Source: Bacteroidales bacterium (GTDB lineage Bacteria > Bacteroidota > Bacteroidia > Bacteroidales > JAIOZK01). From it: 64,000 bases of DNA. Each line of letters starts with the position of its first letter. The first letter of the stretch is position 1. The notes below the pieces were generated by a model. The model was given only the letters and a program-made list of their open reading frames with translations. It made no database searches and was not told the origin of the DNA. The stretch is taken from the NCBI GenBank assembly GCA_021740625.1, contig JAIOZK010000002.1:1-64000 (forward strand), written 5' to 3'. Below are positions 50,323 through 52,749 of the stretch, one piece after another. Position numbers and translations under genes: made by a program.

Positions 50323-50338
50323 CTCAAACTAGCGTGTG

Positions 50339-50626
50339 ATGGAGGAGGAGAATACACTCATATCAGGGATAGAATACAAGCTCAGAACGCTTTTAAAAAA
50401 GCTTGAAAAGTTGAAGGAAGATAAACTTGAACTCGAAGAGCAAAAAATAAGATTAAAGGAAATTGCAGAGAATCAAAAAAACAGAATAGATATACTGGAA
50501 GAAAAACTAAAAACATTAAAACTGGCTAAATCGCTTGAGGAGGGGCCTGATAAAGAGCAGGCCAAAAAAAAGATTAATGAGCTCGTGCGGGAAATTGATA
50601 AATGTATTGGGCATTTAAATGCATAA
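50339..50626 (+). CDS. Coiled-coil protein upstream of zapA (ZapB-like)
   Basis: 95 residues, start ATG at 50339 (an in-frame GTG directly precedes it). Residues about 10-75 are a continuous heptad-like coiled coil (LRTLLKKLEKLKEDKLELEE). No catalytic motif is present. Its size, coiled coil and position 23 bases before zapA suggest a ZapB-like division factor that bridges ZapA to the chromosome-segregation side of the Z ring. Sequence similarity to E. coli ZapB is too weak to prove this. The conserved order with zapA and rny supports a cell-division role. Confidence 0.65.
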   Translation: MEEENTLISGIEYKLRTLLKKLEKLKEDKLELEEQKIRLKEIAENQKNRIDILEEKLKTLKLAKSLEEGPDKEQAKKKINELVREIDKCIGHLNA

Positions 50627-50649: not shown

Positions 50650-50937
50650 ATGATGGAAGAATTGACAATTTCAGTTAAAATAGCAGAAAGGCCTTACAGG
50701 TTGACGATTACCAAAGAGGAGGAAGAGTTTGTCAGGAAGGCAGCCAAACAAATTAATGATAGAATGAAAGATTTTTCGGATCATTATGCCTACAAGGATA
50801 AACAGGACTTGCTGGCAATGGTTTCCTTGCTGTTTGGTACCAAAGCCCTGAAATATGAGGCATTGGAAGAAAAAGAAAAATCAAGGTTTTCGGAGAGGCT
50901 GGCTGAAATAGACAAATTGTTATCAAAGGCATTATAA
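50650..50937 (+). CDS. zapA: Cell division protein ZapA
   Basis: 95 residues. ZapA is a small FtsZ-associated protein that cross-links FtsZ filaments at midcell. It starts with ELTISVKIAERPYRLTIT, followed by EEEFVRKAAKQINDRM near 24 and a C-terminal coiled coil (KALKYEALEEKEKSRFSERL) that drives tetramer formation. A second ATG follows the first directly. The 267-base gap after it carries a candidate structured RNA and leads to rny. Confidence 0.88.
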   Translation: MMEELTISVKIAERPYRLTITKEEEEFVRKAAKQINDRMKDFSDHYAYKDKQDLLAMVSLLFGTKALKYEALEEKEKSRFSERLAEIDKLLSKAL

Positions 50938-50974
50938 TAGAAAACGTTCTTTGAATTAAAGCATTAAAATTACC

Positions 50975-51180
50975 CGCATTGATTCATATAGTTTATAAAC
51001 TCAACATTAATCAATTTAGGGTTTAAAGCTCATAAATTGCTAGAACAGGCCTCAATCCCAGCATAAATGGGATTCTTCTCCGAAGACAGTGGACGTTCGA
51101 ACAGTTTGGCAACCCTATACATGTCTTTTTGGGGTTTATCAAAACTCCTGAATTCAATGTGGGTTTTTTTATTTCCTCAG
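50975..51180 (+). ncRNA. ssrS: Candidate 6S-like structured RNA between zapA and rny
   Basis: The spacer has no protein-like ORF but many complementary arms. ATTGATT at 50978-50984 pairs with AATCAAT at 51009-51015, enclosing the palindrome AGTTTATAAACT. AATCCC at 51054-51059 pairs with GGGATT at 51069-51074. GGGGTTT at 51131-51137 pairs with AAACTCC at 51142-51148. TAGGGTT at 51017-51023 could pair with AACCCTA at 51111-51117, or that AACCC could pair with GGGTT at 51132-51136; the two are mutually exclusive. A 6S RNA gene is known between zapA and rny in many Bacteroidota, so I suggest 6S. The ends are approximate and I cannot fold it here. Confidence 0.45.
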
Positions 51181-51204
51181 GCGAAAGCTCTAATATATAA
51201 AACT

Positions 51205-52749
51205 ATGGACTGTATTATCATTGGAGTTATTGCAGCAATTGCAGGTGCACTCATTGGTGGTTTGGTTACTGCCACCTTGTTACGCAAGGCTGTCGAAAAG
51301 AAAAGCAAGATTGTTCTGGAAGAGGCTGAAGAAAAAGCCGAAGTGATCAAAAAGGAAAAAATCCTTCAGGCAAGAGAAAAATTCCTTCAGTTGAAATCGG
51401 AACACGAAAAAGTAATCAACGAAAGAAATACAGAAATACAAAAGGGGGAATCCAGGCTTAAACAAAAAGAATCGAATCTCTCCCAGAAAATTGAGGAATT
51501 ACAAAGAAAGCAAAATGAAGTTGATAAGATCAGGGAAAATCTGAGTGGGCAACTTGACATTGTGGCCCGGAGACAGGAAGACCTTGAAAAACACCGTCAG
51601 AAGCAAATTGAACAACTGGAAGCCCTGTCGGGATTAAGCACAGAACAAGCCAAAGAACAATTGATCGAATCCCTTAAAGATGAAGCCAGGGCCGATGCCT
51701 CTATTATGATCAACGATATTATTGAAGAAGCCAAGATCACCGCTGACAAGGAAGCCAAGAAAATTGTGATTGAAACTATTCAGCGGACTGCGGCGGAGCA
51801 TGCCATCGAAAACACAGTATCGGTTTTCAACATCGAGAATGATGAGATCAAAGGCCGTATCATTGGCCGTGAAGGCAGGAATATCAGAACCCTGGAAGCT
51901 CTCACTGGTATAGAGATCATCATCGACGACTCTCCCGATGCCATTATTCTTTCGGGCTTTGATCCTGTCAGGCGCGAAATTGCCAGGCTTTCACTGCATA
52001 AGCTTGTAACCGACGGACGAATTCATCCGGCCAGGATCGAAGAGGTGGTAGCCAAAACACAAAAGCAGATCGAACAGGAAATTGCCGAAACAGGCAAACG
52101 CACATGCATCGATCTGGGCATCCACAACATGCATCACGAACTTGTCCGCATGATCGGAAGAATGAAATACAGGTCTTCATACGGACAAAACCTTTTACAA
52201 CATTCGAAAGAAGTGGCATATCTTTCTGCGACCATGGCAGCCGAACTGGGCCTGAATCCAAAAAAGGCAAAACGTGCCGGGTTGCTGCACGACATCGGCA
52301 AAGTTCCTGATAACGAATCCGATCTTCCGCACGCCATGCTGGGTATGAAGCTGGCCGAAAAATACAAGGAAAAACCGGATATCATCAATGCCATCGGAGC
52401 GCATCACAATGAGATCGACATGGAAAGTTTGCTGGCTCCCATCGTCCAGGTTTGTGATGCTATCTCAGGAGCACGCCCGGGTGCCCGCCGCGAAGTGGTC
52501 GAAGCTTATATCCAGCGCCTCAACAAACTGGAAGAACTGGCACTGAGTTATCCCGGAGTTGTAAAAACCTTTGCCGTTCAGGCAGGACGAGAATTGCGCG
52601 TGATCGTTGGGGCAGAAAAAGTGAGCGACCAGGAAGCCAACCAGATTTCTTACGATCTTTCCAAAAAGATACAGGAAGAAATGACCTATCCCGGACAGAT
52701 AAAGATCACGGTGATACGGGAAACAAGGTCGGTGGCGTATGCGAAATAA
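51205..52749 (+). CDS. rny: Ribonuclease Y
   Basis: 514 residues from the ATG at 51205; the frame is open upstream, but that part belongs to the structured spacer. RNase Y is a membrane-anchored endoribonuclease that starts mRNA decay. Layout: membrane anchor at about 3-25 ([16 protein letters not shown]), a long coiled coil to about 200, a KH domain ([20 protein letters not shown], about 218-237), and an HD domain with [12 protein letters not shown] and IGAHHNEID (about 345-420). All expected active-site residues are visible. Confidence 0.96.

Follow-up and report, generated by a model that had tools for sequence, protein, structure and literature searches.

Between zapA and rny in Bacteroidales: a predicted, divergent 6S RNA gene preceded by a boxA-like element

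Introduction

6S RNA is a known small RNA that acts as a widespread transcription brake, parking RNA polymerase when growth slows. The description of the 6S-Flavo family (Rfam RF01685) is due to Weinberg et al. (2010; PMC2864571), 6S RNA and two classes of product RNA (pRNA) have been detected by RNA-seq in Bacteroides thetaiotaomicron (PMC7366714), 6S RNA has been listed for Flavobacterium psychrophilum (PMC9723704), and the 6S gene of Proteobacteria is linked to zapA (PMC7641849). Since 6S RNAs are thus already known in Bacteroides and Flavobacterium, the gene described below would be a new, divergent member of the 6S RNAs.

In this study, we analyzed a 64 000-nt window (contig JAIOZK010000002.1, assembly GCA_021740625.1) from an uncultured Bacteroidales bacterium, in which the spacer between zapA and rny had been pointed out as a possible 6S RNA gene. 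The RNA predicted here is homologous to RF01685 along the whole length of the Rfam model, with the same zapA-6S-rny gene order and common conserved blocks (AAACTCAAC and GGAGTTT/GGGGTTT). However, its apex is approximately 30 nt longer than the short loop of RF01685 and forks into two hairpins, and the 108 positions of RF01685 stop within the closing stem, lacking the outer stem and the T-run that are present in both groups. Such an omission may explain the poor reach of RF01685 beyond one family. The B. thetaiotaomicron 6S RNA belongs to the same RNA class and phylum (PMC7366714). The canonical 6S/SsrS RNA (RF00013) also has a closing stem, a central bubble and an apical arm, together with linkage to zapA in Proteobacteria (PMC7641849), whereas rny takes the place of ygfA/EVE downstream of the window RNA, which RF00013 does not match; the two are bridged through a deep-branching genome of the same phylum (L192, see below). 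In the open-access text that was searched, no description could be found of a 6S RNA with boxA antitermination, nor of the apical fork, the self-closing terminator or the boxA-like leader.

Materials and methods

We collected 80 Bacteroidota-type records with rny, and 98 rny loci were examined in all. Before alignment, four loci without a usable zapA or upstream region (L036, L047, L067 and L012) and three duplicates (L034, L053 and L058) were excluded, leaving 91 spacers. A filter of <85% identity reduced these to 73, and one more (L097) was lost, its 3' end being incompatible with the cutting rule. The remaining 72 Bacteroidales zapA-rny spacers were used to build alignment A1 and model R1. 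For a second model, R2, we used 14 sequences (set A2) that belong to two further families within the class, presumably flavobacteria; 7 of the 14 came from genomes above the RF01685 cut-off and none from the order of the window. For the rRNA comparison, 26 16S leaders were used after removal of three duplicates, one leader of 36 nt and two without a 16S start.

Results and discussion

The zapA-rny spacer

The original prediction placed a structured, 267-nt spacer at 50938-51204, and its coordinates and letters proved correct. On the plus strand, zapA (50650..50937; PF05164 ZapA, 62.1 bits, E 6.2e-17) lies upstream with its stop at 50937, and rny (RNase Y; 51205..52749; TIGR03319, 649.4 bits) starts at 51205 downstream. 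A small coiled-coil ORF before zapA (50336-50626) is conserved at the same place in most relatives; it had no Pfam match, and its position is reminiscent of that of zapB. The spacer was more stable than its dinucleotide shuffles (fold z −3.2; none of 200 equally stable), and this became more pronounced when it was trimmed to 50973-51163 (z −4.79; again 0/200), with a weaker fold for the minus strand (z −1.94). Together with the covariation across relatives described below, these values bear out that the spacer is structured beyond chance. A gene on the minus strand was considered and rejected, the minus-strand matches of R2 and R1 (22.6 and 18.1 bits) being the mirror of a rod-shaped RNA.

Identification of the spacer RNA as 6S RNA

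A search with Rfam, as had been proposed, returned a match of RF01685 to positions 50999-51137 (44.9 bits, E 1.5e-5), which is below the curated cut-off of 85 bits, so the window RNA is a homologue of RF01685 but is not filed as a curated member. It was the only convincing match of this model in the whole genome; the other (19.7 bits, E 7.6) was taken as chance and not as a second 6S gene. RF00013 (cut-off 46.4) gave no match in the region among those listed up to E 10, and none in the genome (G000). The window RNA is therefore too divergent for Rfam to call. R2 matched exactly positions 50973-51173 (88.9 bits, E 4.7e-17), although R2 is not fully independent, because its sequences and their ends were picked by R1. 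R1 itself recovered all seven genomes above the RF01685 cut-off, with matches that overlap those of RF01685, and it also found the RNA of L192, which RF00013 matches at 47.1 bits, above its own cut-off. The gene order in L192, as read by eye, is coiled-coil ORF, ZapA-like ORF, RNA and rny. In family f133, sub-threshold RF00013 matches coincide with many R1 matches, and overlap of R1 and RF00013, mostly below the Rfam cut-off, was observed in the deep-branching genomes L192, L188 and those of f133. Homology to accepted 6S genes could thus be found both through R2 and through the recovery by R1 of the seven cut-off-passing genomes and L192.

The gene order agrees with this assignment. The original prediction had stated that the position matches known 6S genes of Bacteroidota, and zapA-6S-rny is indeed the order in 7/7 loci above the RF01685 cut-off. 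Although RF01685 carries no information on gene order, 18 of the 22 loci that it matched at E up to 1 in 60 genomes (the window's own included; none above the cut-off) adjoin rny. Taking the Rfam match, R2, this synteny and the covariation of the fold together, we consider it almost certain, as far as sequence comparison can tell, that the zapA-rny spacer encodes the Bacteroidota form of 6S RNA; the predicted gene would extend from about 50973 to about 51173 on the plus strand.

Only 7 of 148 sampled genomes of the phylum, all of one family, passed the RF01685 cut-off. R1 matched 68 of these 148 and, within the order, 97 of 119 genomes, some of the latter being training data. Among the 97, 88 had the match within 500 nt upstream of rny (71/80 without training genomes); no R1 match was obtained in 20 of 117 genomes of the order that have rny. 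The best match lay away from rny in nine genomes (G071, G073, G030, G003, G097, G042, G108, G024 and G020), and the copy in G042 (L007) is near an ORF that resembles PheS by eye. Two loci with Bacteroidales-type zapA-6S-rny order came from records titled Alphaproteobacteria (L044) and Ruminococcus flavefaciens (L093), which are probably mislabelled bins.

Rod fold and covariation

The best fold of the RNA is a rod in which closing stems (50973-51002/51132-51163) and a central bubble are followed by helix P4, by further inner helices and by a pair of hairpins at the apex. The closing part comprises P1 (50973..50986 with 51149..51163), P2 (50990-50994 with 51142-51146; 79.9% paired) and P3 (50995-51002 with 51132-51139; 90.2% paired), these and the following paired percentages being biased upward because the structure was partly derived from the same alignment. 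The bubble has two strands of 14 nt (51003..51016 and 51118..51131) that are unpaired in both the minimum free energy (MFE) and the consensus structures. Beyond it follow P4 (51017-51023/51111-51117; 90.0% paired), P5 (51035-51038/51103-51106; 85.0%), P6 (51043-51046/51095-51098; 96.5%) and P7 (51050-51051/51091-51092; 100%).

Two-sided changes are the better measure of this fold, and across the 72 relatives they were found in 30 of the 37 pairs of the structure, including 9 of the 10 pairs of P5-P7 (within 51035..51106). The number of two-sided cells was 286, compared with 84.5 in shuffles, and none of 500 shuffles reached it; after sliding by one column, paired cells fell from 86.8% to 54-58%. 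Thus, the covariation that the original prediction had called for in related spacers could be found, and the rod shape of the 6S class, in which a closing stem, a large bubble in the centre and an apical arm follow each other, is seen in both the MFE fold and the 72-sequence covariation.

At the tip, the RNA forks into two hairpins, 51055-51073 and 51074-51086 (together 51055..51086). When the apices of the relatives were folded alone, two hairpins formed in 56/72 compared with 12.06 expected from mononucleotide shuffles; it should be noted that the cutting pattern clipped some of the second hairpins.

The competing pairing

It had also been proposed that 51111-51117 pairs either with 51017-51023 or, through 51111-51115, with 51132-51136, and that these mutually exclusive helices could reflect open and closed forms of 6S RNA. 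The letters at these positions (TAGGGTT at 51017-51023, AACCCTA at 51111-51117 and GGGTT at 51132-51136) do allow both pairings to be written and make them mutually exclusive, and the first is a real, covarying helix: it is P4, with two-sided change in 5/5 tested pairs. The second, whose 51132..51136 strand is also the 3' arm of P3, was indistinguishable from chance. None of its five pairs showed two-sided change and 500/500 shuffles reached the observed values; 82.3% of its cells were paired compared with 81.2% when slid by one column. The complete central three pairs were present in 63/72 sequences for P4 but in 36/72 for the alternative, and in all 13 sequences with A at 51133 the change improves P3 (U-A) and breaks the alternative. 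Set A2 was less clear-cut (13/14 for P4, 7/14 for the alternative). A conserved switch between the two pairings is therefore unsupported, because the second lacks two-sided change and fails the shuffle control; it was rejected on this lack of covariation and on the 13 sequences that favour P3.

In other 6S RNAs a 3' hairpin forms after pRNA synthesis, and the second pairing might be a real, sequence-tolerant hairpin of this kind, for which covariation would not be expected. For lactic acid bacteria, a hairpin facing the 5' bulge has been mentioned as a prediction (PMC8414754), and the 82.3% of cells that still pair, partly by G-U, would be in keeping with such a structure. Nevertheless, the 13 sequences in which P3 gains a U-A pair at its expense and the incompleteness of its central triple in half of the relatives make this explanation quite unlikely in our opinion. 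If any refolded form exists in Bacteroidales, a weak local alternative, 51019-51021 with 51029-51031 (51019..51031), would be a better candidate, on thin evidence: 93.5% of its cells were paired, compared with 59-61% when slid by one, and 2/500 shuffles reached its two-sided count.

Closing stem, T-run and the relationship with rny

P1 contains 12 pairs, of which 10 showed two-sided change (81.2% paired, with the upward bias noted above), and in two relatives (L094 and L102) the closing stem has been wholly replaced with its complementarity kept. It is followed immediately by a T-run (51164..51170), a probable intrinsic terminator. At least five T within the 8 nt after the stem were present in 71/72 cores, where the cutting rule itself needed two T. 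In 56/72, a rule-free search found an arm with 6/6 complementarity and, directly after it, six or more T in eight, compared with a background of 6.2% of positions; it found no 6/6 arm in 9/72. In folds of the full length the first bases paired with the last in 72/72, whereas the arm found a partner in 33/72 when the last 45 nt were folded alone. A stable stem with a U-run directly after it, as in intrinsic terminators, is thus present, and a local terminator scan found none because the arms of P1 are ~160 nt apart. On the basis of these folds, the closing stem probably doubles as the terminator, in which case a correctly folded RNA would end itself.

This arrangement bears on the suggestion that the spacer is a cis-regulator of rny, that is, a leader switch in which the two exclusive helices would decide whether transcription continues into the RNase Y gene. 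Such a role would suit an RNA that lies directly upstream of rny in 88/97 matches, and a T-run after the closing stem would let folding set the read-through. However, the second helix that the switch needs is not conserved, a cis role would not survive in the 9/97 genomes whose best match is away from rny, and its homologue is a 6S RNA, established as acting in trans. Nothing in the data supports a cis role: the RNA is connected with rny by its position only, and it finishes in a T-run ahead of that gene. We therefore regard regulation of rny as very improbable and retain the assignment to 6S RNA.

A boxA-like element upstream of the RNA

Just past the zapA stop, a boxA-like element, CGTTCTTTGAA (50945..50955, plus strand), precedes the RNA. 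The label is given by resemblance to the boxA of Escherichia coli. In 65 of the 72 relatives the general form, GTTCTTTGAA, was present no more than 70 nt ahead of the RNA, compared with 2.5 expected from mononucleotide shuffles and with 1/72 in a control window; the relatives without it were L022, L033, L038, L078, L081, L090 and L092. Most of the 6S genes inspected at the level of the class show it upstream as well. The exact CGTTCTTTGAA is not enriched genome-wide (four occurrences in G000 vs five for the reversed control). The motif is common to the rRNA leaders of the group, occurring in 22 of 26 16S leaders against 3.98 expected, and a genome of the same genus (L104) carries GTTCTTTGAAAA 108 nt before its 16S gene. 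Across the phylum, GTTCTTTGAA is common to 6S leaders and rRNA leaders.

The main rival to antitermination is that GTTCTTTGAA is instead a promoter element, the -33 region of the 6S gene. It contains TTTG, and its distance to the closing stem is nearly fixed, in most cases 18-31 nt, as a promoter element might show. In Bacteroidota promoters, however, the -33 TTG needs TAnnTTTG ~20 nt downstream, and a scan for such pairs recognised none between zapA and the RNA; the only ones found precede zapA (50607/50632) and the ORF at 50336 (50292/50315). Moreover, the same motif stands upstream of mature 16S in the rRNA leaders, mostly 82-250 nt away. We thus consider the promoter reading unlikely, if still worth weighing. 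A sigma-70-type promoter-like site at 50909-50938 (11/12) was left unused, the scan having given three sites where 3.0 were expected.

Given the conservation of the motif, its occurrence in 16S leaders and the lack of a recognisable promoter after zapA, transcription from upstream with antitermination is favoured. We tentatively propose, with confidence a little short of even, that Bacteroidota 6S RNA is made in the manner of rRNA, with putative boxA antitermination from zapA and the closing stem as terminator. A polymerase leaving zapA would meet boxA in the nascent RNA and load the Nus antitermination machinery; so equipped, it would cross the untranslated 6S region without Rho termination, and it would stop where the finished 6S RNA closes on itself, the closing stem being the terminator.

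Proposed function and significance

By analogy with the family, the bubble would mimic an open promoter, so that the RNA could hold sigma-loaded RNA polymerase as growth slows, and the polymerase would be freed on copying a short pRNA from the bubble. Transcription of the RNA may come from upstream as part of the zapA message or begin at a start close by; it would end at the junction of closing stem and T-run, and the product may then be trimmed to ~190-200 nt.

The 6S gene itself is ordinary; what deserves attention is its link with boxA. The full-length model reached 68/148 genomes of the phylum and 97/119 of the order (part of them training data), compared with 7/148 for the public 6S-Flavo model, and the full-length alignment provides the likely ends, a terminator that the RNA builds itself and a boxA-like signal common to rRNA operons. 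This signal suggests that 6S synthesis may be linked to antitermination of the rRNA type. If it holds, the production of the RNA that parks polymerase would be tied to the rRNA machinery, and the release of full-length 6S RNA would be tied to its correct folding.
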